Source: Cystobacter fuscus
GTDB lineage: Bacteria; Myxococcota; Myxococcia; Myxococcales; Myxococcaceae
DNA: 64,000 bases
Reading direction: 5' to 3'
NCBI RefSeq assembly: GCF_002305875.1
Contig: NZ_CP022098.1
Location: 5,084,001 to 5,148,000 of the forward strand
Position numbers and translations under genes: made by a program. This document shows, piece after piece, positions 18,209-31,578 of this stretch. Positions within the stretch are counted from its first letter, which is position 1. Each line of letters starts with the position of its first letter. The notes beneath the pieces are model-generated. The model was given only the letters and a program-made list of their open reading frames with translations. It was not told the origin of the DNA and did no database searches.

Positions 18209-21200
18209 ATGGCTGATGGGACCCCGGACAGCACCGACAATCCAGCCTCGAACCAGGCGCCACGAAGTCAGGGCGCCGGACTGGAGGATTCCGATTTCGA
18301 TGATTCCCTCCTGCGGGCCGTGGCCGAGGGGCCCGCCTTGTTCCGCAAGCCGGCTGTCGGGGAACGGCTGGGTGGCTCGGATGGGCGGCGCTTCGAGATC
18401 CTCGGAGAGCTGGGGCAGGGGGGCATGGGTCAGGTGTTCCGCGCGCGCGACGCGGAGCTGCAGCGCGTGGTGGCCCTCAAGTTCTTCCGGCCCCGGGAGG
18501 ATGCCGGGGCCGCTGGTTCCCTGGAGCTGTTGCGGCAGGAGTCGCGGGCCATCGCGCGGTTGGATCACGAGAACATCATCCGGGTCTTCGATGTGGCCGA
18601 ATGGGTGGGCGCTTCGTGGGAGCCCCGGATTCCCTTCCTCATCATGGAGTGCTTGGAGGGCGAATCGCTCACATCCCTGTTGCGGCGGGAGCGGCGGCCA
18701 GGCGTGCGGCGTGCCCTGGAGGTGATGGAGGGGGTGGCGGCCGGTCTGGCGCACGCGCACGAGCGCCACATCCTCCACCGCGACCTCAAGCCGAGCAATG
18801 TCTTCATCAGTCCCCAGGGACGCGTGAAGCTGTTCGACTTCGGGCTCGCCTGGTCTCGTCTGGCCGGCGATTCCGCCTCGGCCTTCCTGCCCATCGCCGG
18901 GACGCCCGCCTATATGTCCCCCGAGCAGTGGCGGGGCGGCGCGCAGGACGCGCGCAGCGATCTCTGGTCCGCGGGCGTCCTGCTGTACGAGCTGTTGTGT
19001 GGGGATCCGCCCTATCCGTGCGCCTCGTTGGATGAGCTGCGCGAGCGCGTCACCTCGACCGAGCCGGTGCCCTCGGTGCGCACCTGCTGTCCGGATGTGC
19101 CCGAGGAGCTGGAGGCCCTGGTGGCCTCGCTCCTGGCGAAGGCGCCCGAGGCGCGCCTGCCCTCCGCCCAGCAGCTCCTGGATCGGCTGCGCCAACTACA
19201 GGAGGGCCTGGGTCCCTGGCGCGAGGAACCCCGGGGGGTGGTGCCCCAGCGCCGGGCGGTGACGCTGATGTCCTGCCTCCTGGTGGGCGCGCAGGGTGTT
19301 TCCGAGACGTCCGATCCCGAGGACCTGAGCGAGCTGGAGGCCAACTTCCACAAGCGCTGCTCGGAGATCACCCAGGCACATGGGGGCTCCATCACCAGCT
19401 GCATGGGGGATGAAGTGCTGGCCTGCTTCGGCTACCCGGTGGCTCACGAGGAGGATGCCGAGCACGCCGTGGCGACGGCGCTCGAACTCTCCGCGAACGG
19501 GTTCGTCCTCCAGGTGGGCCTGCATACGGAGACGGTGGTGTTGGATGACAGTCTTCCTCAGCTTCATGGCCGCGCGCCCACCATCCAGGGCGAGGCGCCG
19601 CGCATCGCCGCGTGGCTCGCCCGGCAGGCTCGTCCCGGCACCGTCGTCCTCAGCCAGACCACGCATACCCTGGTGCGACAGGCGTTCGACGCCGTCCCCC
19701 TGGGGGAACACTCCTTCGAGGGGTTGTCGAAGGCGCGCCCGATGCCTCTCTGGCGGGCGGTGCGCGCGCGCGAGACGGTGTTCCGCTTCGATCGCACGCT
19801 GGCCGCCGGGGCGCTCACCCCCATGGTGGGCCGCGAGGAGGAGCTGCGGCGGCTGCTCGGCTTCTGGAAGGAGGCCCAGGAAGGCCGAGGCTCCTTCGTG
19901 TTGCTCTCGGGTGAGGCGGGTCTCGGCAAGTCCCGGCTCCTCCTGGAACTGCGCCAGCGAATACCGCCATCCTCGTGCACCCTCCTGCGCTGCCAATGCT
20001 GGAGCCAGTTCTCCCAGAGCGCCTTCCACCCCATCATCGAGATGATGCAGGGGATGCTCAGGCTGGCGCCGGAGGGCTCGCCCCAGGACAACCGCCGCGT
20101 GCTGGACGCGCGCCTGACGCAGTGGGGCCTGGACGAGGAGCAGCGCGAGCTCCTCGCCGCCTTCCTCTCGCTCCCCTCGGAGGGGGCCGCCCCGCGCTTT
20201 CCCCTGTCGCCGGAGCAGCGAAAGGAGCGCACCCGCGAGGCGCTCACGGAACTGCTGCTCCACCTGACCCACGCGCGGCCCGTGCTCGGCGTGGTGGAGG
20301 ACCTGCACTGGGCGGATCCCTCCACCCGGGAACTGCTCAACACGGTGCTGAGCCGGGTGGGGCACGCGCGGATGCTCTTCGTCGCGAGCACCCGGGAGGC
20401 GGACGGCCGGAGCGAGGGGCCGTCCTATCACCACGTGACGCTGGAGCGATTGTCGGCGCCGCTCACGGCCCGCTTGGCGCGCGAGGCGGCCAATACGGAG
20501 CTGCCGGAGGAGATGCTCCGCCTGTTGGTGGAGAAGACGGAGGGGGTGCCTCTCTTCGTGGAGGAGCTGTCTCGTCAGGTGGCCGCCGGCGGCAGCGTGC
20601 CCGCCCTGCCCCTCACCCTGCACGGGTTGCTGCTGGCGCGGCTGGATGCGCTGCCGGTGCGGCTCAAGACGCTGGTGCAACTGTGTGCCGTGGTGGGCCG
20701 CGGCTTCACCCGGAAGTTGATGGCGTCGCTGACCCGGCGTGAGCCGTCCTCGTTGCGCGAGGATCTGGAGGCCCTGGTGGCCGCGGGCCTGCTCCAGCGG
20801 AGTGAAGACGTGGAGGAGGGCATTGCCTACCAGTTCCGCCATGCCCTCTTCCAGGAGGCCGCCTACCAGTCCCTTCCCCGGGGCCCCCGGCGTCACCACC
20901 ACCGGAGGATCGCCCAGGCACTGGAAGAGCAGTTCCCCAAGGTGGTGCAGACCCAGCCGGAGCTGCTCGCCCACCACTACACCGAGGCCGGAGTCCCCAC
21001 GCGCGCTATCGTGCATTGGCGGACCGCCGGGATGCGCGCCCTCATGCGTTCGGCGAACCAGGAGGCCGTGAACCACCTGAACCAGGCGCTCACGCTGCTC
21101 GGCACCCAACCCGATACCCCCCAACGCACCCAGCAGGAATTGCAGCTGCTCTCCTTCCTGGGCATTCCACTGACCCAGGTGCGCGGCTTGAGAGCCCCCG

Positions 21201-22252
21201 AGGTGAAGCGCACCTACGCCCGGGTGCGCGAACTGTTTCCCCTCGTGGGCGACGCGCTGCCAGCCCTGGAGGTGTCCTACTGGGGGCCGTTCTCCTATTC
21301 CTACAGCCGCGCCGAGTTCCCCGAAGCCCACGCCCTGGGCAAACAGCTCGTGGAGGTGGGCTCCCGCCAGCGGCACCAGGATCTGCTCGCCCAGGGCTAC
21401 CGCATGATGGCCACCATCTTCTTCGCCTGGGGGCGGGTGCACGAGTCGCTCGACAACGTGGAGCGCGCCGTGGCGTGCTCGGATTCCTCCCTGGAAGAGC
21501 ACATGCGGCTGGCCGTGCAGCAGTGGGTGGATCCCACGGCGGTGGCACTCGCCCACGGCGCCGTCATCCACTCGGTGAGCGGCCAGCACGAGAAGGCCCT
21601 GCGCTGGGGCCAGGAGGCACTCACGCTCTCCGAGCGCATCGGTCATCCCCAGACGCGCGCCTACGTGCTCCTCTACGCCGCGATGGCCTGTCAGGTTCGC
21701 GGCGATGCGCGCGGGACACTCTCGCGGGCCGAGGCTCATCTCGAGCTCGCGCACCAGGTGCGCCTGCTGACGGAATGGGTGTGGGTCGGCATGCTGCGTG
21801 CCTGGGCGCTCTCCGAACTGGGCCTCCCCGAGGCGGGCCTGGTGCAGATGCGCCAGGGGTTGAGCCGGTGGCGCCTCGTGGGTATGCACGCGTCAATGAC
21901 CTACTTCGTGGGCATGCTGGCGCAGGTGCACCTGCGGCGCAGGCGGCCCCAGGAAGCCCTGCGCGCGGTGAACGAGGCCCTGCGATGGGCGGAGTCGACG
22001 GGCGAGCGCTTCTACGAGTCGGAGGTGTACCGTGTCGGCGCCCAGGCGTGGCGGGAGCTGGGCGATGAGGAGCGGGCACGTGAGTTCTTCCAGCGGGCCG
22101 TGCACATCGCGCGGGAACAGGGCGCCGGGCTGTTCGAGCAGCGCGCCCTGCGGCTCCTGGAGCCACACGAGGCGCGGCCCGAGGACGCCGAGCACCCATC
22201 GCGCTCCGAGCAACCCTCCCCCGAGGAGGCGGCGCGGCACGCACACGAATGA
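18209..22252 (+). CDS. Multidomain Ser/Thr kinase - degenerate cyclase - AAA ATPase - TPR protein
   Basis: 1347 aa. Order: kinase domain (about 55-330) with glycine loop GQGGMGQVF, ATP Lys in VALKFF, HRDLKPSN, DFG and GTPAYMSPEQW; a class III nucleotide-cyclase-like domain (about 345-520); an AAA/STAND ATPase with Walker A GEAGLGKS (about 570) and Walker B-type VVEDLHWAD (about 692); then a long TPR-rich helical tail. In the cyclase-like part the usual F-x-D-x-x-G metal site reads CLLVG, so the first metal Asp is missing, while GDEVLACFG keeps the second. It is probably inactive as a cyclase and may act as a sensor. Such proteins integrate signals and phosphorylate unknown targets. Confidence 0.9.
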   Translation: MADGTPDSTDNPASNQAPRSQGAGLEDSDFDDSLLRAVAEGPALFRKPAVGERLGGSDGRRFEILGELGQGGMGQVFRARDAELQRVVALKFFRPREDAGAAGSLELLRQESRAIARLDHENIIRVFDVAEWVGASWEPRIPFLIMECLEGESLTSLLRRERRPGVRRALEVMEGVAAGLAHAHERHILHRDLKPSNVFISPQGRVKLFDFGLAWSRLAGDSASAFLPIAGTPAYMSPEQWRGGAQDARSDLWSAGVLLYELLCGDPPYPCASLDELRERVTSTEPVPSVRTCCPDVPEELEALVASLLAKAPEARLPSAQQLLDRLRQLQEGLGPWREEPRGVVPQRRAVTLMSCLLVGAQGVSETSDPEDLSELEANFHKRCSEITQAHGGSITSCMGDEVLACFGYPVAHEEDAEHAVATALELSANGFVLQVGLHTETVVLDDSLPQLHGRAPTIQGEAPRIAAWLARQARPGTVVLSQTTHTLVRQAFDAVPLGEHSFEGLSKARPMPLWRAVRARETVFRFDRTLAAGALTPMVGREEELRRLLGFWKEAQEGRGSFVLLSGEAGLGKSRLLLELRQRIPPSSCTLLRCQCWSQFSQSAFHPIIEMMQGMLRLAPEGSPQDNRRVLDARLTQWGLDEEQRELLAAFLSLPSEGAAPRFPLSPEQRKERTREALTELLLHLTHARPVLGVVEDLHWADPSTRELLNTVLSRVGHARMLFVASTREADGRSEGPSYHHVTLERLSAPLTARLAREAANTELPEEMLRLLVEKTEGVPLFVEELSRQVAAGGSVPALPLTLHGLLLARLDALPVRLKTLVQLCAVVGRGFTRKLMASLTRREPSSLREDLEALVAAGLLQRSEDVEEGIAYQFRHALFQEAAYQSLPRGPRRHHHRRIAQALEEQFPKVVQTQPELLAHHYTEAGVPTRAIVHWRTAGMRALMRSANQEAVNHLNQALTLLGTQPDTPQRTQQELQLLSFLGIPLTQVRGLRAPEVKRTYARVRELFPLVGDALPALEVSYWGPFSYSYSRAEFPEAHALGKQLVEVGSRQRHQDLLAQGYRMMATIFFAWGRVHESLDNVERAVACSDSSLEEHMRLAVQQWVDPTAVALAHGAVIHSVSGQHEKALRWGQEALTLSERIGHPQTRAYVLLYAAMACQVRGDARGTLSRAEAHLELAHQVRLLTEWVWVGMLRAWALSELGLPEAGLVQMRQGLSRWRLVGMHASMTYFVGMLAQVHLRRRRPQEALRAVNEALRWAESTGERFYESEVYRVGAQAWRELGDEERAREFFQRAVHIAREQGAGLFEQRALRLLEPHEARPEDAEHPSRSEQPSPEEAARHAHE

Positions 22253-22284
22253 GCCGCGGCCCCCGCGCGGGGCGCCGCCTCCCT

Positions 22285-24051
22285 TCAGTGGAGGGCCACC
22301 GGCTGCTCGCGCCCGGAGACGCGGGAGCGGGTGGGGTGGCGCGAGTGCTCGATGAGGTGCTCGGCGAAACGATCGGCGAGCGCCGCGATGGTGAGGCTCG
22401 GGTTGACGCCCGTGGGGCCCGGCAGCACCGAGCCATCCGCCACGTAGAGGCCGGGGTGGTTGAAGACCTCGCCATGGGAGTCCACCACGCCGTCGGCCAC
22501 GGAGCGGCCCATGGGGCAGCCCCCGAGCGGATGCGCGACGATGATGCGGCTGAGCATGCCGAGCGGGTACTGGATGAACTTCCCCCCGAGCACGCGGGCC
22601 ACCCGGGCCATGGTGCGCCGCACGCGCTGGAAGTAGTCAGACGAGTCGCGCATCTTCCAGTCGACCGTCAGCATGCCCGCCTCGTTGAGGGACATGTGCC
22701 CGGTGGGCATATCCCGGCCCATGGCGAGCAGCGGCAGCGAGCTGGAGGAGCCCACGCAGTCGCCGATCGCATCGCCGATCTCCGCGCTCACGTCGGTGTC
22801 CTTGTTCAACCCCAGCCAGCCCTGGGCGAGCCGGATCCCCAGCCGGGCGAGGCGGCGTGTGAGGGCGACCTGGTTGAGTCCCTCGTGGAGCCAGTTGACG
22901 AACTCCGGGTAGCCGGCGTCCTGGATGTAGAAGCCACGGCCGGTGCCCCCCTGGGCCGCGTCGCGAATGTACAGGCTGCTGGTGATGACCGGGCCATGGC
23001 CCCCATCGAGCAGGCGGGGCTCGTAGCCACGGTTGCCCCGCTGGACGCACTTGGAGACGAAGGACACCAGGTCGCCATTGCCGCTGAACTGCGTGCCGAG
23101 CCGGGTGCTGAGCCCCGGCAGCGACGCCTGGCTCTTGAGCAGCAGATACGTGGTGCCGAAGGTGCCCGCCGACAGCACGAGCTTGTCCGCCGTGATGACC
23201 CTGCCCGGCTGGTTGGACAGGGGCTCCTGGGGAGGCTCGCCCTCCTGGGCCTGGGAATGGTCCAGGTACTCGACGCCATAGCCGTCGCGCTCATGCCAGA
23301 AGGAGCGCACCTCGCAGCGCGTGCGCAGCTCCGCCCCGGCCCGCCTGGCGGCCGACAGGTACGTGTAGTCGAGCGTGTTCTTGCTGCCGTAGTTGCAGCC
23401 GATGTCGCACTCGCCGCACAGCCGGCACGTCAGGCGCGTGCGTCCGTGCAGGTTCCCATGCGGCTCGTGGATGGGCTCGCCCGGGATGGAGGGCTGTCCG
23501 GGGTTGCCGAACGTCACCGCGAGCGGGGGCAGCTCCCAGTCGGCCTTCAGCCCCATGCGCTCGGCGGCGAGCTTCATCGCGATCGTCTTGGCGGTGTGGC
23601 GGTAGGGCTCCTGATCGAACGGGTAGCGCTGGGCGCCGAGCATCTTCTCCACGGCGTCGTAGTGCGACTCCAGCTCCTCGCGGTTGACGGGCCAGTACTC
23701 GTAGCCCCCGTGGCGGGGAGACTCGCGCACGAAGGTCTTCTCGTCCTTGCGCAGCAGCACGTTGGCGTAGATGAGCGAGCCCCCGCCGAGTCCGCTCGAC
23801 ACCACGCCCGCGAGCCCGGGGAAGGACCAGATGTTGAAGAGCCCATGGAGCCCCTGGTGGGGGTCCCAGAAGTTGCGGCGCATGCCATAGGGGCTGCGCG
23901 GGAACGAGCCGGGGGGATAGGCCTTGCCCCGCTCCAGGACGCAGACGCGCAGGCCCGCCTCGGCCAGGCGCCAGGCCATCACCGAGCCGCCAAAGCCAGA
24001 CCCCACGATGATGACATCGAAATGTTCTCGTCGTTGTTGTCTTGGATTCAT
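22285..24051 (-). CDS. GMC-family flavoprotein oxidoreductase (cholesterol-oxidase-like)
   Basis: 588 aa from the ATG at 24051. The FAD-binding fold opens with VIIVGSGFGGSVMA (about residues 12-25) and LERGKAYPPGS. The GMC signature region SSGLGGGSLIYANV is present. A Cys-rich patch with spacing C-x2-C-x2-C-x3-C (RLCGECDIGC region, about 215-225) is typical of a cholesterol-oxidase-like GMC subgroup. The C-terminal catalytic region has HPLGGCPMG and DGSVLPGPTGVNPSLT. It should oxidise a sterol or other lipid alcohol. It is the last of three genes joined by ATGA overlaps with the middle-domain protein and an alpha/beta-hydrolase. Confidence 0.88.
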   Translation of the reverse strand: MNPRQQRREHFDVIIVGSGFGGSVMAWRLAEAGLRVCVLERGKAYPPGSFPRSPYGMRRNFWDPHQGLHGLFNIWSFPGLAGVVSSGLGGGSLIYANVLLRKDEKTFVRESPRHGGYEYWPVNREELESHYDAVEKMLGAQRYPFDQEPYRHTAKTIAMKLAAERMGLKADWELPPLAVTFGNPGQPSIPGEPIHEPHGNLHGRTRLTCRLCGECDIGCNYGSKNTLDYTYLSAARRAGAELRTRCEVRSFWHERDGYGVEYLDHSQAQEGEPPQEPLSNQPGRVITADKLVLSAGTFGTTYLLLKSQASLPGLSTRLGTQFSGNGDLVSFVSKCVQRGNRGYEPRLLDGGHGPVITSSLYIRDAAQGGTGRGFYIQDAGYPEFVNWLHEGLNQVALTRRLARLGIRLAQGWLGLNKDTDVSAEIGDAIGDCVGSSSSLPLLAMGRDMPTGHMSLNEAGMLTVDWKMRDSSDYFQRVRRTMARVARVLGGKFIQYPLGMLSRIIVAHPLGGCPMGRSVADGVVDSHGEVFNHPGLYVADGSVLPGPTGVNPSLTIAALADRFAEHLIEHSRHPTRSRVSGREQPVALH

Positions 24052-24725
24052 GGGGATTCCATTCGCGGGGGTGGAGGGGTGGAAGGGGCGCCTTCGTTCC
24101 AGAGGGCCAGCACCTTGGGGGCGTAGAGCCGCCAGAGGGAGCCGAGGAAGAACTCGCCAAAGCGCAGCCGGGCCTGGAGGCCCATGGGCTCCGGGAGGCG
24201 GGAACCCATGGAGGCCACGAGCGCGAGCACGTCCCGGAGCCCCAGCGAGAGCACTCCCGCGCCCACGATCCGGCCGCGCTCGTCCTCGCCCTCGTGGAGC
24301 TGGCAGGAGAGCCGGGTGGTGTCGCGCCACAGGTCCCAGCCATGGTCGTCATGGACGGTCTTGGTGCCCGACAGGTAATACGCGCGCTCTCCGCTCACGA
24401 AGGGCAGGCCATAGGTCATCAACCGGATCCCCGGTGCGTCTCCGGGCCGGAACAGGTTGAAGCGCCCCCGCTTCACGAGCAGTTCCTGGCCCAAGGGCGA
24501 ATAGGAGGCATGGGCCAGGAGCCGGGCCGAGTGCTCCGGTTTCTCGATGAAGGCCTCCACGTCGTCCACGAGGATGGTGGCGTGGAAGGTGAAGGGCGTG
24601 CGCCGGCCCCGGGCGGCGCCCTGGCGGGGGTTCGTGGCTCCCAGTGACAGCCCTCCCGACATGGTCTCGCGGAAGAAGAGCTCGGGGGCGGAGTCCTGGA
24701 TTTCCCGATGTTCGTCCAGCATCAT
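24048..24725 (-). CDS. Partner protein of the GMC oxidoreductase/hydrolase operon
   Basis: 225 aa from one of two adjacent ATGs (24725 or 24722); its first codon overlaps the stop of the hydrolase gene and its stop overlaps the GMC start. It has no signal peptide or membrane segment. Beta-strand-rich text such as FTFHATILVDDVEAF and LMTYGLPF with GTKTVHDDHGWDLWRDTT suggests a lipocalin-like or hydroxysteroid-binding fold. I recall one-polypeptide GMC-hydrolase fusions in other bacteria with a middle domain of this size; this gene seems to be that domain as a free protein. The role (substrate carrier or subunit) is inferred. Confidence 0.65.
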   Translation of the reverse strand: MMLDEHREIQDSAPELFFRETMSGGLSLGATNPRQGAARGRRTPFTFHATILVDDVEAFIEKPEHSARLLAHASYSPLGQELLVKRGRFNLFRPGDAPGIRLMTYGLPFVSGERAYYLSGTKTVHDDHGWDLWRDTTRLSCQLHEGEDERGRIVGAGVLSLGLRDVLALVASMGSRLPEPMGLQARLRFGEFFLGSLWRLYAPKVLALWNEGAPSTPPPPRMESP

Positions 24726-25786
24726 GAGTGCTCCCGGACAGGCCGGTTCAGCTCGGCCTGGATGAGGGGGAAGACGTCCCTGGGCGCGTGCTTGCCCATG
24801 AAGACATCGAGGTGGCCGTAGCCCGGCACCACGTGCAGCGAGTGGTAGCCACGCCGGTAGCGGGACATGATCTCGTAGGAGCGCTGCTGGCTCTCGGCGA
24901 GGAAGCACCGGTTGTTCCGGCCGGTCATGAAGACGAACCGGGCCTCCGTCTGGGGGCGGCGCAGGGCCACGTCGTGGGGCAGCTCCCGGTAGCCCTCGAC
25001 GGGAATGGTGTAGCCCGCGCGCAGGCTCTCGAGCATCTGCCGGAAGAAGGAGAGGGGCACCTGGGCGAACTCCTGCTTCACCCATTCATGGGTTTGCGGA
25101 TTGAGGTTCTCGTGACTCCAGAGCGTGGGATGGCCCAGGCCGTAGATGACGCTCACCATCTTGCACACGGTGTTGTCGCACTCGTGATGGGTGGCTCGCG
25201 CCATGAGGGTGAGGGTCTGGGGGAGCAGGCCCCTGGAGCCAAGGCCCCACTGGGGATTGAGGTAGGACGTCCACCGTGAGAGCAGGGGGACGAGTTGGCT
25301 CAGCTTGAGGCACGTGGCGCGCGACATCACCGGGTGCAGGGAGACGGCGTTGCTGATGATCAGCTTCACCTGGGGCAGCAGCCCGGCGACCGCCGAGAGG
25401 ATGAAGCTCGTCGCGCCCTGGCAATGGACGATGGCCTTGACCTCGTTCCAGCCCGTCTTCTGGACGATCGTCTCGATGGCCTTGGGGTGGTCATGGACGG
25501 CCGCCTGATCGAACGTCCACTCGTTGGGCGCGACGTCGATGCTGGCCCGCCAGTTCTCCAGCCAGACATCGTAGCCATCGGCGACGAGGGTATCGACGAG
25601 CGTCCGCGGAATGGGGGCACGGAAGATGTTGGCGCGCACGCCGGCGCCATGCACGAGGATCACGGGCCCCTTGACTGGAGCGCGAGAGCCTCGGACCCGG
25701 ATGAGATTCAATGGCTTGCCATCGCCCGCACGGAAGTTCACGACCTCCTCACGCGGGTGGGAATAGGTCACGGTATTGGCACGCAT
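24722..25786 (-). CDS. Alpha/beta-hydrolase with Cys nucleophile elbow
   Basis: 354 aa. The oxyanion motif VHGAGVRANIF (about residues 45-55), the nucleophile elbow VHCQGAT (about 122-128) and the terminal GYGHLD (His about 325) are all visible. The elbow normally reads G-x-S-x-G; here the nucleophile is Cys and the first Gly is His-preceded, as in PHA synthases and dienelactone hydrolases. An acid residue probably sits in FMTGRNNRCF or nearby. No signal peptide. It is the first gene of the three-gene ATGA-coupled operon, with GGGGAG before its ATG. A lipid or sterol ester or thioester is a likely substrate. Confidence 0.85.
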   Translation of the reverse strand: MRANTVTYSHPREEVVNFRAGDGKPLNLIRVRGSRAPVKGPVILVHGAGVRANIFRAPIPRTLVDTLVADGYDVWLENWRASIDVAPNEWTFDQAAVHDHPKAIETIVQKTGWNEVKAIVHCQGATSFILSAVAGLLPQVKLIISNAVSLHPVMSRATCLKLSQLVPLLSRWTSYLNPQWGLGSRGLLPQTLTLMARATHHECDNTVCKMVSVIYGLGHPTLWSHENLNPQTHEWVKQEFAQVPLSFFRQMLESLRAGYTIPVEGYRELPHDVALRRPQTEARFVFMTGRNNRCFLAESQQRSYEIMSRYRRGYHSLHVVPGYGHLDVFMGKHAPRDVFPLIQAELNRPVREHS

Positions 25787-26211
25787 TACGGAGAACTCCC
25801 CCTACATCTGGATGATTGGTGATGCACATGCCTGATGACACGGCATTTGCATGGCCTGTCCCCCTGACCGCCTTCGCCGGGCCAGGGCTTTCTCCCGATG
25901 GAAGGCCGTCCCGGCGGATGTGACGAAGGGTCCTATGCGACGCGGACCGAGGGCGAAGAGCCCTCGAGGAGCCGATCGTTCGTGGTCACGCTACGTGGCT
26001 GGCCCCCCGGGCACCTCGATCTCTCCGGGCTGGTGGGTTGTCGCTCGTCTATTTCCGCTGTACCCAGTATCATTTCTCGATAATACGAGAGCAGCACCCC
26101 TGGGAGCCCCGGTGAAGCGTGCTGGCACCAAGCGCCCCCGGCCGTGAGTTGCGAAAGGTCGCCCTCCGGCTCGTGGGGAGCGTGGGCTCAACCAAGGTGG
26201 ACACTCTTCCT
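25787..26211. other. Intergenic region between divergent operons
   Basis: 425 bp separating the hydrolase operon from the large kinase/histidine kinase gene. I see no convincing gene. Two palindrome-like elements stand out: ATGCC-N9-GGCAT at 25830-25848 and TCTCG-ATAATA-CGAGA near 26076. The second lies in a locally AT-rich stretch that could hold the promoter of the plus-strand gene. Both are weak candidates for operators. Confidence 0.4.
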
Positions 26212-29200
26212 ATGGTCGGCATTCCTGGCTACACGCTGATCGACAAACTCAAGTCGACGGGCACGAATATCCTGTATCGCGCGGTGCGCGATTCCGACCG
26301 CCTGCCCGTCATCGTCAAGATGCCCATGTCCGCGCACCCCGGCGTGCGCGAGCGCGACGACTACCGCCGCGAGTACGCCGTCCTGCAGCGGCTGAGCGAG
26401 GTGCGCGGCGTCCCCCGGGTCCTGGGCTTCGAGCTGAGCGGCGAGCGGCCGGTGCTCCTGATGGAAGGTGAAGGCGGAGCCGCCCTGTCCGACACGGCGG
26501 GGACTCCGCTCGGCGTGGAGCGCTTCCTCGAGCTGGCCATCTCCCTGGCGTCAACGCTCACGGACATCCACCGCCGCGGCGTCATCCACAAGGATCTCAA
26601 GCCCTCCAACATCATCCGCCTGCCCTCGGGCGAGACGCGCATCGTCGACTTCGGGAGCGCCACCGTCCAGAGCGTGGAGCACGTGGAGGCGGTCTCCGCC
26701 GGGCTCATCGAGGGGACCCTCGCCTATATGTCCCCGGAGCAGACCGGGCGGATGAACCGCTCGGTGGACTACCGCACCGACCTCTACTCCCTGGGAGTGA
26801 CCTTCTACGAGCTGCTCACCGGCACTCTGCCCTTCCATGGGCGCGATGCGCTCGAGTGGTTCCACGCCCACATGGCGCAGACCCCGAGAGCGCCGCACGA
26901 GCGCATCCCGGCCATTGCCCCCTGCTTGTCCGCCATCGTGATGAAGCTGCTGGCCAAGGTGGCCGAGGAGCGCTACCAGGGCGCCGACGGGTTGAAGGCG
27001 GACCTGCTGCGCTGCCAGGAGGCGCTCGGCCGGGGCGAGCTCGAGCCGTTTCCCCTGGGCGAGCACGACATCCCCACCCACTTCCAGATGCCCCAGCGGC
27101 TCTATGGGCGCGAAGCGCAGGTGGACACGCTGCTCCAGGCCTTCGAGCGGATTGGCCGGGGCGGGCATCCGGAGCTGGTGCTGATCAGCGGCTATTCCGG
27201 CATCGGCAAGTCCGCGGTGGTGCACGAGCTGTACCGGCCCGTCGTGCAGCGGCGAGGCCTCTTCCTCGACGGCAAGTTCGACCAGTTCCAGCGGGACATC
27301 CCCTACGCCACCCTGGCCCAGGCCATCCGGGGCCTGGTGCGCCAGTTGCTGGCCGGCACCGACGCGGAGCTCGAGGCCTGGCGCCAACAGCTCTGTGAGG
27401 CGTGGGAGGGAAGCGGGCAGCTCCTCGTGGATCTGGTCCCCCAGCTCGAGCTCATCGTGGGCAAGCAGCCGGCGCTCCCAGCGTTCACCCCCGCCGAGTC
27501 ACAACATCGCTTCGACTGGGTCTTCCAGCGCTTTCTCGGGGTGCTCTCCACCCCCGCGCATCCGCTCGTCATCTTCCTGGATGACCTGCAGTGGGCCGAC
27601 GGGGCCAGCCTCCGGCTCATCCAGCACCTCTTCACCCACCCGGACACCCCGCCGCTGTTGATGATCGGCGCCTACCGCGACAACGAGGTCAGCCCCTCCC
27701 ACCCGCTGATGCTGACACGGACGGAGCTGCGCAAGGGCGGCGCGTGGGTGGCCGAGCTCCGGCTCGAGCCGCTGAGCCAGGAACAACTGCGGCAGATCAT
27801 CACCGATGCGCTCCCGGGCGCGGAGCAGGAGGTCATCGAGCCGCTCTCGGCCCTGGTGCACCAGAAGACCGGAGGCAACCCCTTCTTCTTCCTCCAGCTC
27901 ATGCGGACGCTCAATCAGGACGGGCTGCTGACCCGCACGCCCGAGGGCCGCTGGCACTGGGATGAGCAGGGCATCCGGGCCCGGGCCTACTCCGACAACG
28001 TCGTCGACTTCCTGGTGGGCCGGCTGCGACAGCTCCCCGAGCAGACCCAACACCTGCTGCGCCTGGCGGCGTGCGCGGGCAATGCCTTCCCGAAGCGCAC
28101 CCTGGCCATCATCTCCGACAGAGCGGAGGACGAGGTGGAGCGGGAGCTCGAGCCCGCGCTCCAGGAAGGCCTGTTGATGCGGACGGGCCAGGAGCAATAC
28201 CGATTCCTCCACGATCGCATCCAGCAGGCGGCCCACGCCCTCATTCCCGAGGAGGAGCGCAAGGCCATCCACCTGCGCATCGGCCGCCTGCTGCTGGCGA
28301 GCCTGCCCCCGGAGGAAGTGCGCGAGAAGATCTTCGACGTGGTGAACCAGCTCAACGCCGGGGCCGAGCTGCTCGTGCTCCCCGGGGAGCGCCACCAGGT
28401 CGCGCTGCTCAACGCCGAGGCGGGCAGGAAGGCGCAGGCCTCGACCGCGCACCGCTCGGCCATCACCTACTTCACCGCGGCCCTCTCGCTGCTGCCGGAC
28501 CCCTGGGAGCGCGAGCACGCGCTGGCCTTCCAGCTGAGCTTCCAGCGGGCGATGAGCGAGTTCATGAGCGGCAACACGGACGGGGCGCGCCAACTCGTGG
28601 AGGCGCTCCGCCCCCGGGCGCGCACCCCCGCGCAGCTGGCGTCGGTGTCCGTGTTGCTGAGCGACATCCACATGGCCGCCAGCGAAACCCAGCCCGCCGT
28701 GGACTGTCTGCTGGAGTGCCTGACCTCGCTGGGCATGCCCATGCCCCCCCATCCCTCCCGGGAGGAAGTGGAGGCCGCCAACGCGGAGGTGTGGACCCTG
28801 TTGGGGGAGCGCCCCATCGCGAGCCTCCTCGAGCTGCCGCTCATGACGGACCCGGACATCCAGGCGATGATGAGTGCCCTCTCCGCCCTGTTCACGCCCG
28901 CGCTCGCCACGGATGTCAACCTGCTCGTCCTGTACCTGTGCAGGATGCTCTCCCTCTCCCTGCGCCACGGCAACAGCGAGGCCATCACGACTGGGTATGC
29001 GTGGTACGGCATCACGCTGGGCAGCCTGTTCGGGCGGTACCGGGAGGGCTATGCCTTCGGCGAGCTGGCCCTCGCCCTCGTCGAGCGCCACGGCTACACC
29101 ACCTCCCGGGCGAGGATCCTCTACTCGATGGAGCTCCTCAGCGTCTGGACCCAGCCGCTCACCCTCTCGCTGGAGTACATCCGCAATGCCTTTCAGCAGG

Positions 29201-31578
29201 CCGTTCCGGCGGGTGATTTCCAGACCGCCGGATACTGCTGCAACCACATCGTCACGGATCGCCTCGCCCTCGGGCACCCCCTGGACGAGATCCACCAGGA
29301 GTCGGTCGCGCGCATGGACTTCGTGCGCAAGGCCAACTTCCATGGCGTCCAGCAAATCATCCAGTGCACCCAGCGCTACATACAGCAGCTGCGCGGCCTG
29401 TCAGCGTCCTTCGAGTCGCTGAACGGAGAGGACTTCGACGAGGAGTCCTTCGAGGCGGGGCTGTCGTCGACACCGCACATGAGCACCGTGGTGTGCTGGT
29501 ACTGGACCCTCAAGATGCAGTCGCGCGTCATGTGCGGCCGGTACGAGGAGGCATGTCAAGCATCGGCCAGGGCCCAGGAGCTCCTCTGGTCCTCGCTCGG
29601 CCACATCCAGCTGGCGGACTTCCACCTCTACAGCGCGTTGGCCCTGTCCGGCCGCTGCGAGGACGCGGCGCCCGAAGCACGGCGGGACTACCTCGAGGCC
29701 ATGCGGCGGCACCAGCGACAGCTCGGGGAGTGGGCGGAGCACAGCCCCGGCAACTTCCGCGCGGCCGAGCGGATGGCCGCCGCCGAGCTCGCCCAGCGCC
29801 AGGACCAGTGGGACGAGGCGATGCACGCCTACGATGCGGCGATCCACTCGGCGCGCGAGCACGGCTTCCTCCAGAACGCCGCGCTCGCCAACGAGCTCGC
29901 GGCGCGCTTCTGGCGCAAGCGGGGGGTCAAGACCATCGCCCTGGGCTACGCCCGCGAGGCGCGGGATGCGTACCGGACGTGGGGGGCCCACGGCAAGGTC
30001 CAGCACCTGGAGGACCAGTGGCCCACGCTCTCGGGTACGGCGAGCGCCCAGGACCGCGCGGCCTCCGATACGACCTCGACTCATCTCGATGCGCTCACCG
30101 TGGTGAAGGCCCAACAGGCCATCTCCGGGGAGATAGACCTGGAGCAGCTGGTGTCCACGCTGCTGCGGGTGGCCATGGAGAACGCCGGCGCCCAGCGCGG
30201 CGCCCTGCTGCGCCCGCACGGCAACAAGCTGCGGCTGGTGGCCCTCTCCAACGTGGCGGAGGGCGGCGCCGTGGTGCTTCCGGAAGACAACTCCACCCAC
30301 GAGCTGCCCTGGTCGCTCCTCACCTACGTCAAGCGCACGCGCGAGCACGTGCTCATCGGGGATGCCTCCCGGCCCCATCCCTACGCCTCCGACGGCTACT
30401 TCGAGCACGGCCGGGCCAAGGCGGTGCTCTGCCTGCCGCTGCTGCGCCAGGAGGAGCTCGTCGGCGTGCTCTATCTGGAGAACAGCCTCACCGCGGATGC
30501 CTTCACCCCGGCCCGCCTCACGCTGCTCGTGCACATCGCCTCCCAGGCCGCCATCTCCATCGAGAACGCGCGGCTCTACGCCGACATCAAGCAGGCCCAG
30601 GCCGCCCTGCGCGACGCCAACGACGAGCTGGAGCGGCGCGTGGACGAGCGCACGCACGAGCTCAAGGAGGCCCAGGCCCGGCTGGTGGGAATGGCACGCG
30701 CGGCGGGCATGTCCGAGATCGCCTCCAACGTGCTGCACAACGTGGGCAACGTGCTCACCAGCGCCGTCGTCAACCTCGAGACGACGCGTCACGCGGTGGG
30801 CGCGTCGCGGGTCGTCCGGGTGCGGCAGGTGGCCGCGCTGCTCGAGGAGCACCGCGAAACGCTGATGGACTTCCTCACGAAGGATCCCCGGGGGAGCCGC
30901 CTGCCCGACTACCTGTCCGCGCTCGCCGCCGAACTCATCCATGAGCAGACGAACCTGCAGGAGAACCTGGACGCCATGAACCGGCACCTGGAGCACATCC
31001 GGGCCATCGTCCAGGTGCAGCAGACCTACGCGAAGACGCCGCTGCTCACCGAGGAGTGCGATCTGGCGCAGCTCGTCGACGACACCCTGCGCATCCAGTA
31101 CACCTCGCTCCAGCGCCACGGCATCACCCTCACCCGCGAGTTCGCCCGCCTGCCCCGGATGTGGCATGACAAGCACAAGGTGATGCAGATCCTCGTCAAC
31201 CTCGTCGCCAACGCCAAGTACGCCATGGACGCCATGCCCGAGCAGCAGCGGCACCTGCTCGTGCGGCTCACCACGGACGATGGGTGGGCACGCATCCAGG
31301 TGACGGACAGTGGCGTGGGCCTCGCGCCGGAGATCCTCGGCAAGCTCTTCACGCATGGTTTCACCACGCGCAAGGACGGCCACGGCTTCGGCCTGCACTC
31401 GAGCTCGCTGGCGGCGAAGATGCTGGGAGGGCGTCTGACGCTGGAGAGCGAGGGGCCCGGCAAGGGGACCACGGCCACCCTGGAGATTCCGCTCATGCCC
31501 GAGCCCAGGACGTTCCCCCCCGAGACCAGGCGGAAGGAGCCCCGCGTGGGCCCCCTTTCTCCCGAGAAGGATCCTTGA
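26212..31578 (+). CDS. Trifunctional Ser/Thr kinase - AAA ATPase - GAF - sensor histidine kinase
   Basis: 1788 aa from the ATG at 26212 (MVGIPGYTLID); an upstream TTG would add a poor extension. Order: kinase (about 1-270) with HKDLKPSN (Lys in place of the usual Arg) and DFG; AAA/STAND ATPase with Walker A SGYSGIGKS (about 326); a long helical region; GAF (about 1300-1470); coiled coil; DHp with VLHNVGN (about 1507) carrying the phospho-His; HATPase with NLVANAKYAMDAM (N box, about 1663) and GHGFGLHSS. It is a large cytoplasmic signalling hub coupling Ser/Thr and His/Asp phosphorylation. No receiver gene is adjacent. Confidence 0.92.
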   Translation: MVGIPGYTLIDKLKSTGTNILYRAVRDSDRLPVIVKMPMSAHPGVRERDDYRREYAVLQRLSEVRGVPRVLGFELSGERPVLLMEGEGGAALSDTAGTPLGVERFLELAISLASTLTDIHRRGVIHKDLKPSNIIRLPSGETRIVDFGSATVQSVEHVEAVSAGLIEGTLAYMSPEQTGRMNRSVDYRTDLYSLGVTFYELLTGTLPFHGRDALEWFHAHMAQTPRAPHERIPAIAPCLSAIVMKLLAKVAEERYQGADGLKADLLRCQEALGRGELEPFPLGEHDIPTHFQMPQRLYGREAQVDTLLQAFERIGRGGHPELVLISGYSGIGKSAVVHELYRPVVQRRGLFLDGKFDQFQRDIPYATLAQAIRGLVRQLLAGTDAELEAWRQQLCEAWEGSGQLLVDLVPQLELIVGKQPALPAFTPAESQHRFDWVFQRFLGVLSTPAHPLVIFLDDLQWADGASLRLIQHLFTHPDTPPLLMIGAYRDNEVSPSHPLMLTRTELRKGGAWVAELRLEPLSQEQLRQIITDALPGAEQEVIEPLSALVHQKTGGNPFFFLQLMRTLNQDGLLTRTPEGRWHWDEQGIRARAYSDNVVDFLVGRLRQLPEQTQHLLRLAACAGNAFPKRTLAIISDRAEDEVERELEPALQEGLLMRTGQEQYRFLHDRIQQAAHALIPEEERKAIHLRIGRLLLASLPPEEVREKIFDVVNQLNAGAELLVLPGERHQVALLNAEAGRKAQASTAHRSAITYFTAALSLLPDPWEREHALAFQLSFQRAMSEFMSGNTDGARQLVEALRPRARTPAQLASVSVLLSDIHMAASETQPAVDCLLECLTSLGMPMPPHPSREEVEAANAEVWTLLGERPIASLLELPLMTDPDIQAMMSALSALFTPALATDVNLLVLYLCRMLSLSLRHGNSEAITTGYAWYGITLGSLFGRYREGYAFGELALALVERHGYTTSRARILYSMELLSVWTQPLTLSLEYIRNAFQQAVPAGDFQTAGYCCNHIVTDRLALGHPLDEIHQESVARMDFVRKANFHGVQQIIQCTQRYIQQLRGLSASFESLNGEDFDEESFEAGLSSTPHMSTVVCWYWTLKMQSRVMCGRYEEACQASARAQELLWSSLGHIQLADFHLYSALALSGRCEDAAPEARRDYLEAMRRHQRQLGEWAEHSPGNFRAAERMAAAELAQRQDQWDEAMHAYDAAIHSAREHGFLQNAALANELAARFWRKRGVKTIALGYAREARDAYRTWGAHGKVQHLEDQWPTLSGTASAQDRAASDTTSTHLDALTVVKAQQAISGEIDLEQLVSTLLRVAMENAGAQRGALLRPHGNKLRLVALSNVAEGGAVVLPEDNSTHELPWSLLTYVKRTREHVLIGDASRPHPYASDGYFEHGRAKAVLCLPLLRQEELVGVLYLENSLTADAFTPARLTLLVHIASQAAISIENARLYADIKQAQAALRDANDELERRVDERTHELKEAQARLVGMARAAGMSEIASNVLHNVGNVLTSAVVNLETTRHAVGASRVVRVRQVAALLEEHRETLMDFLTKDPRGSRLPDYLSALAAELIHEQTNLQENLDAMNRHLEHIRAIVQVQQTYAKTPLLTEECDLAQLVDDTLRIQYTSLQRHGITLTREFARLPRMWHDKHKVMQILVNLVANAKYAMDAMPEQQRHLLVRLTTDDGWARIQVTDSGVGLAPEILGKLFTHGFTTRKDGHGFGLHSSSLAAKMLGGRLTLESEGPGKGTTATLEIPLMPEPRTFPPETRRKEPRVGPLSPEKDP

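Follow-up and report, generated by a model that had tools for sequence, protein, structure and literature searches.

Three overlapping genes of Cystobacter fuscus as a probable reduced form of a hydrolase, barrel-protein and oxidoreductase gene cluster found across phyla

The locus and its three genes

The window analysed here is a stretch of 64,000 nucleotides from the myxobacterium Cystobacter fuscus (contig NZ_CP022098.1, positions 5,084,001 to 5,148,000), and our subject is a trio of genes that follow each other on its minus strand. HYD (24722..25786) encodes an alpha/beta hydrolase of 354 amino acids (aa) with a predicted Cys nucleophile, MID (24048..24725) a protein of 225 aa that is predicted to form a beta-barrel with a C-terminal helical hairpin, and GMC (22285..24051) a flavin adenine dinucleotide (FAD)-dependent oxidoreductase of 588 aa with the catalytic-type pair His507/Asn550. 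Two ATGA overlaps on the same strand join the genes, HYD to MID at 24722..24725 and MID to GMC at 24048..24051. The coordinates and both junctions confirm this part of the original prediction, which was made from the letters of the DNA and described the three overlapping genes as a split GMC oxidoreductase-hydrolase fusion, possibly a sterol or lipid processing complex.

The order and adjacency of the trio are retained in all three same-genus genomes compared (L035, L036 and L037), where the proteins are 65-93% identical to those of the window. In the same comparison the dN/dS of the trio is 0.31-0.62 by a simple NG86 count, and the trio is under purifying selection. Both exact ATGA overlaps are also present in L035 only, the closest of the three; the genes of L036 and L037 also adjoin each other, with lengths and junctions unlike those of the window. 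Thus, the overlaps are not a deep feature of the locus. A single MID and a single full HYD are present in the window genome as a whole, along with a weak additional HYD match.

Sizeable open reading frames (ORFs) on the plus strand, for example 22249-24126 in the ORF list, also cover the trio stretch. As the minus-strand proteins have many homologues, these are treated as shadow ORFs of GC-rich DNA. The trio is flanked by two large plus-strand proteins (P0004 and P0005), at 18209-22252 and 26119-31578, the sequences of which read as kinase-ATPases.

Conserved residues and predicted folds

All matches of HYD to Pfam, which are to hydrolases, are below threshold. In a profile search, HYD aligns along its whole length to gastric lipase (1hlg, E 2.2e-15, profile 11-343). 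The Ser, Asp and His of gastric lipase align with Cys122 (codon 25421..25423), Asn292 (24911..24913, opposite the Asp of the GGKD motif) and His325 (24812..24814), all encoded on the minus strand; the Asp and His we take to be members of the gastric lipase triad. Its nucleophile is Ser153, according to a passage in PMC7034887. Of 103 HYD rows, the window among them, all but one have Cys at position 122 (102/103), while Asn292 and His325 are found in 103/103 and 103/103 across many phyla; matches spanning 250 or fewer profile positions, 2 of 104, are omitted from these counts. The Cys nucleophile that had been proposed from the sequence is thereby upheld, and HYD has a Cys-His-Asn set on an acid-lipase scaffold in place of the Ser-His-Asp triad of the acid lipases. 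The second, weak HYD match of the window genome carries GHSKGG and GSKD.

A solitary HYD of the same Cys/Asn type is found on a Rhodococcus plasmid (L031:5998-7071), where its gene has a 1-base overlap with the gene of a thioester-reductase protein, hinting at thioester chemistry.

In GMC, Pfam recognises the N- and C-terminal GMC_oxred domains. The catalytic pair is present, with His507 in 100/101 and Asn550 in 96/101 rows, matches of 400 residues or fewer being omitted. In the same rows three cysteines, Cys209-x5-Cys215-x3-Cys219 (23395..23427, minus strand), are all invariant (101/101), and a fourth at position 212 is Cys in 87 of 101. For the FAD-dependent glucose dehydrogenase (FAD-GDH) of Burkholderia cepacia (BcGDH), a source passage reports that Cys212, Cys218 and Cys222 bind a [3Fe-4S] cluster and that Cys213 makes a disulfide (PMC6719666). 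FAD-GDH is also the top solved match of the whole GMC profile outside the cholesterol oxidases, with residues 8-305 aligned to chain residues 6-303. It is likely that GMC carries a putative [3Fe-4S] site, and the three invariant cysteines have the spacing of the FAD-GDH cluster ligands, which favours a dehydrogenase over a cholesterol oxidase. Against the curated model of class I cholesterol oxidases (NF058674) GMC scores 219.8 bits where the cut-off is 850, and none of the six cholesterol oxidase sequences whose alignments were inspected has a Cys at the motif positions.

MID has zero matches in Pfam. Its AlphaFold model is a barrel of about eight strands followed by the helical hairpin (predicted local distance difference test, pLDDT, 87.7; predicted template modelling score, pTM, 0.83), and VIA-align gives Z up to 10.7 to assorted barrels. 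By Foldseek and VIA-align the model has no clear single family, which does not by itself imply a new fold. Of the MID residues, Glu20, Tyr105, Lys122 and Trp133 stand out, each found in 110-112 of 114 rows and in the window as well.

The larger cluster and single-chain relatives

In related myxobacterial genera, HYD is the first gene of a larger cluster, followed by a gene of the acetoacetate decarboxylase type (ADC-like, PF06314), often a small membrane protein, a patatin-MID protein, GMC and often a metallophosphoesterase (MPE). The order HYD, MID, GMC of the trio is thus shared with these clusters, with ADC and patatin in between. The wider distribution was studied in the best 80 of 523 confirmed HYD relatives from named genomes, picked by similarity to the window HYD, and the known spread outside the phylum of the window comes from these 80. 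They span 11 phyla and one unassigned record, among them Nitrosomonas, Nitrospira, Arthrobacter and Nostoc. They are 80 loci rather than 80 genomes (L117 and L119 are similar stretches from a single assembly), their architectures come from a crude ad hoc ORF caller combined with hidden Markov models, and some are cut by contig edges, including L067, L070, L073, L079, L081, L095 and L110. Other parts of the cluster lie beside HYD in 78/80 loci, HYD being alone in two (L110 and L134). MID is present in 74 loci, ADC in 71, GMC in 69, patatin in 57, and MPE and the membrane protein in 30 each; HYD, MID and GMC occur together in 67/80, and together with ADC and patatin in 51/80. HYD and ADC are co-directional in 70 of 71 loci, with a median gap of 34 bases, and the Lys of the ADC-like GMPK motif is invariant (75/75).

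In Azotobacter chroococcum (L089:14435-17907), a second, distinct metallophosphoesterase and a CHAT-domain protein lie downstream of GMC; the protein cluster of each is found in 7/80 loci. A defence system was considered and rejected: PADLOC has no match for the trio, and for five cluster proteins from relatives its only match is a weak SAVED_CHAT match to the Azotobacter CHAT protein.

Compared with these clusters the window lacks several parts. The ADC of the cluster has no match in the window genome and three genus mates, whereas two known cluster holders (G016 and G032) match it strongly; the ADC family as such has one sub-threshold match in the window genome and none above the Pfam cut-off. 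The cluster patatin, which G016 and G032 also match strongly, is matched only partially in three of the four Cystobacter genomes (33-36% identity over 67-68 residues) and not at all in the fourth. An MPE paralogue of the window genome (L154, about 608 kb), 50% identical to the Hyalangium MPE, lies far from the trio. As two comparison genomes that keep the cluster also have such paralogues, it need not be the cluster's own. With ADC unmatched, patatin partial or absent and no MPE beside the trio, the view that the trio is a reduced form of the larger cluster is well supported: ADC, the patatin part and the neighbouring MPE would have been lost, and MID kept as a free protein.

The reduction has parallels elsewhere. 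HYD, MID and GMC occur with no ADC, patatin or MPE nearby in Methylobacillus (L108, in the same gene order), in Symploca (L085) and, as one chain, in a Gemmatimonadota metagenome-assembled genome (L099). A reduced set in the order MID, GMC, HYD is found in three genomes (L141, L143 and L155) from a different genus of the window's family, and MID is kept in the absence of patatin in L039, L040, L059 and L150. Because the reduction recurs, HYD, MID and GMC probably constitute the core, and patatin, ADC and MPE are accessories.

MID itself is a mobile domain. Among the 80 loci it is attached as patatin-MID in 47, GMC-MID in 18, MID-HYD in 3, GMC-MID-HYD in 3, MID-GMC in 2 and patatin-MID-GMC in 1. 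In one locus (L040:7097-8671) ADC is joined straight to MID, and what seems to be the patatin-MID linker remains between them, apparently as the scar of a deletion. In another (L118:7198-10023) GMC and HYD lie within one 941-aa frame, and MID has a gene of its own.

Homologues that unite all three proteins in one polypeptide, as supposed in the original prediction, do exist. A tblastn search of MID and HYD against plasmids returned annotated single genes of 1120-1169 aa in the order GMC-MID-HYD from Azospirillum, Leptospira, Bernardetia and Rhizobium. Further chains of this kind are found in Persicobacter, in L099, in Paraburkholderia (L117/L119) and in two myxobacteria from another genus of the window's family (L142 and L144). 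Those of the first four genera and of L099 are annotated as 'alpha/beta fold hydrolase' or 'GMC oxidoreductase', and their HYD domains are about 25-34% identical to the window HYD, or 57% in L099. Since fused homologues exist, a working link among the three proteins is well founded on this Rosetta-stone evidence.

The trees tell how the trio is related to these fusions. The first MID tree contains 96 of 114 rows, after removal of rows that were short or nearly duplicate and of the divergent L031. It separates a side with GMC-MID and the triple fusions from a side with patatin-MID (99/94), although three MID-GMC rows group with patatin-MID and free MIDs occur on either side. The window MID and those of three genus mates constitute one clade (100/100), nested in a myxobacterial clade that otherwise consists of patatin-MID and free MID (100/99). 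Forcing the trio MID together with the triple fusions is 138 log-likelihood units worse (approximately unbiased, AU, test, p-AU 5e-66). The placement is unchanged in a second tree made by a quick method, in which 13 further rows were added to the 96 and the whole was cut to 93 by taking out some long-branched or near-duplicate rows. By sequence, then, the window MID is shown to descend from the C-terminal domain of a patatin-MID protein. In a HYD tree of 72 rows, made by the quick method, the window HYD is one of nine rows in a set (99) made up of trio and separate HYDs; apart from L099, the HYDs of the triple fusions fall in another starred set. A single clade of trio and fusion HYDs is rejected on this quick tree (p-AU 6e-22), with L099 included although its HYD stands apart from the other fusions.

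Proposed function, rivals and known systems

Our proposal is that a widespread operon for lipid processing has its minimal core in the trio: a dehydrogenase acting on a lipid alcohol and an acyl-transfer enzyme with a Cys nucleophile would be joined in a complex, with a barrel adaptor giving both access to one hydrophobic substrate. We would give this proposal an even chance. We infer the following chemistry. MID would hold the hydrophobic substrate and/or dock the enzymes, and GMC would oxidise an alcohol group of the substrate held by MID, the electrons passing via FAD and the [3Fe-4S] cluster to an external acceptor other than O2. HYD would act on the same molecule by way of an acyl-Cys intermediate, from which the acyl group is transferred or released; this would make it an acyltransferase or thioesterase and not a lipase of the Ser type. 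The natural fusions suggest that the three would work as a complex.

Several observations weigh against this proposal. The nearest solved relatives of GMC by sequence profile are cholesterol oxidases, as are those of the homologous L099 chain by fold. The Fe-S assignment comes from the identical spacing and similar residue numbers; the fourth Cys, at 213 in FAD-GDH and 212 in GMC, stands elsewhere relative to the motif. When the stretch around the motif was searched as a profile, cholesterol oxidases and cellobiose dehydrogenase were matched and no FAD-GDH was among the 22 matches up to E 1; searched as a single sequence, it matched no GMC enzyme. A gamma (hitchhiker) or cytochrome subunit of the FAD-GDH type was not recognised among the shared neighbours scanned, no dedicated search having been made. 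The GMCs of the clusters divide into two classes by sequence, with identities to the window GMC of roughly 29-35% and 49-73%, and GMC may accordingly have been exchanged between clusters. For MID, the top Foldseek matches are ADC-family enzymes and lipocalin prostaglandin D synthase, and none reaches E 0.001. In the model of the L099 fusion the domains are confident (pLDDT 88), and the pTM of 0.69 and a disordered linker between MID and HYD make HYD appear flexibly tethered, so that the model of the whole chain fixes no arrangement of the domains. Finally, a hydrolase with Cys, His and Asn may be catalytically dead.

If so, HYD would be a pseudo-hydrolase scaffold that binds lipid or assembles the complex, and the chemistry would be left to GMC. 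HYD indeed has neither the Ser nor the Asp of an acid-lipase triad, but the near-complete conservation of all three residues across many phyla is above what a dead site would lead one to expect, and Cys-His-Asn triads are active in other folds, such as the papain type. The opening of the abstract of PMC9825947 gives Asn as one possibility for the third residue of the triad, and the literal term 'Cys-His-Asn' was not found among the literature matches listed. Taken together, we find a dead HYD possible but unlikely.

It can also be speculated that the complete cluster encodes a new pathway of lipid metabolism that has moved between phyla, and that the window keeps its oxidise-and-transfer core, an idea we consider quite unlikely. 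Here patatin would free a hydroxyacyl chain, HYD would hold it as a thioester in the manner of a PHA synthase, and the [3Fe-4S] GMC would turn its hydroxyl into a ketone. The ADC-like enzyme would then decarboxylate or condense the ketone product, and the MID barrel would be a portable substrate carrier appended to each enzyme.

The sterol role of the original prediction would have HYD hydrolyse steryl esters and GMC oxidise the released sterol. Among solved structures, HYD is closest to gastric lipases and to lysosomal acid lipase/cholesteryl ester hydrolase, and GMC to cholesterol oxidases; the window genome has one triterpene-cyclase match. In the phylum, a cyclase match is found in 38/69 MID-positive and 42/126 MID-negative genomes (odds ratio 2.45, Fisher p 0.004, kinship ignored), where at most 15 candidates per genome were scored for MID, which may be missed in some genomes, and the sterol scan covered the cyclase family PF13249, with squalene epoxidase outside it. 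This is a weak association and not a requirement, as 31 of the 69 MID-positive genomes have no cyclase match. A same-genus genome that has the trio (G002) shows no SQHop_cyclase_N match at E 1e-10, and the cluster is present in Nitrosomonas, Nitrospira, Arthrobacter and Nostoc, for which making or using sterols is, to our knowledge, not generally known. The replaced triad residues of HYD, and the cholesterol-oxidase score and Cys motif of GMC, also speak against it. The case for sterol use thus comes from the resemblance to cholesterol oxidase and acid lipase and from this co-occurrence; of the proposed joint function, the link between the three proteins is supported and the sterol part is not. 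We regard a sterol or steryl-ester complex as very unlikely.

That the trio is a truly split GMC-MID-HYD fusion, as first proposed, is hardly credible: fused homologues are known and the genes overlap, but the gene order is reversed, both the MID and HYD trees and their AU tests are contrary, and larger myxobacterial clusters already have the order HYD, MID, GMC.

If the proposal of a lipid-processing core is right, myxobacteria, cyanobacteria, methanotrophs, nitrifiers and actinobacteria have in common a lipid cluster for which no assigned function was found. The cluster would also provide a conserved Cys-His-Asn triad in an alpha/beta hydrolase, and a barrel domain fused in the course of evolution to patatins, GMC enzymes and hydrolases in turn. 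The smallest natural version, with three genes, is co-expressible. Among the literature matches listed, searched by titles and abstract openings, no description of this gene combination in bacteria was found; a Leptospira transcriptome paper mentions both cholesterol oxidase and GMC oxidoreductase (PMC13066512).

Compared with known systems, HYD shares with the acid lipases (gastric 1hlg, lysosomal acid lipase 6v7n) the nucleophile elbow and an HLD motif near the triad His, in addition to the whole-length match to 1hlg, and differs in having Cys and Asn where they have Ser and Asp. The nucleophile of the PHA synthase PhaC is a Cys, as in HYD, and its third triad residue is an Asp where HYD has Asn. 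The local match is weak, at 20.7 bits against a curated cut-off of 622.65 (TIGR01838/TIGR01836), and would agree with Cys acyl-transfer chemistry for HYD. For MID, the comparison with calycin or lipocalin-like eight-stranded up-and-down barrels is made on the predicted model, with no Foldseek match at or below E 0.001 and VIA-align Z of at most 10.7.

GMC shares its fold and the His/Asn pair with class I cholesterol oxidase, its best solved relative, and differs in its three invariant cysteines and in lying well under the curated cut-off. With the alpha subunit of the Burkholderia cepacia FAD-GDH (6a2u, 8grj), which ranks below cholesterol oxidase both by profile and by fold, it has in common the GMC fold and an identical C-x5-C-x3-C spacing. 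The GMC-MID-HYD fusions differ from the trio in being one chain, with the domains in the reverse order of its three genes and with MID and HYD on other branches, and they contain the same three domains.

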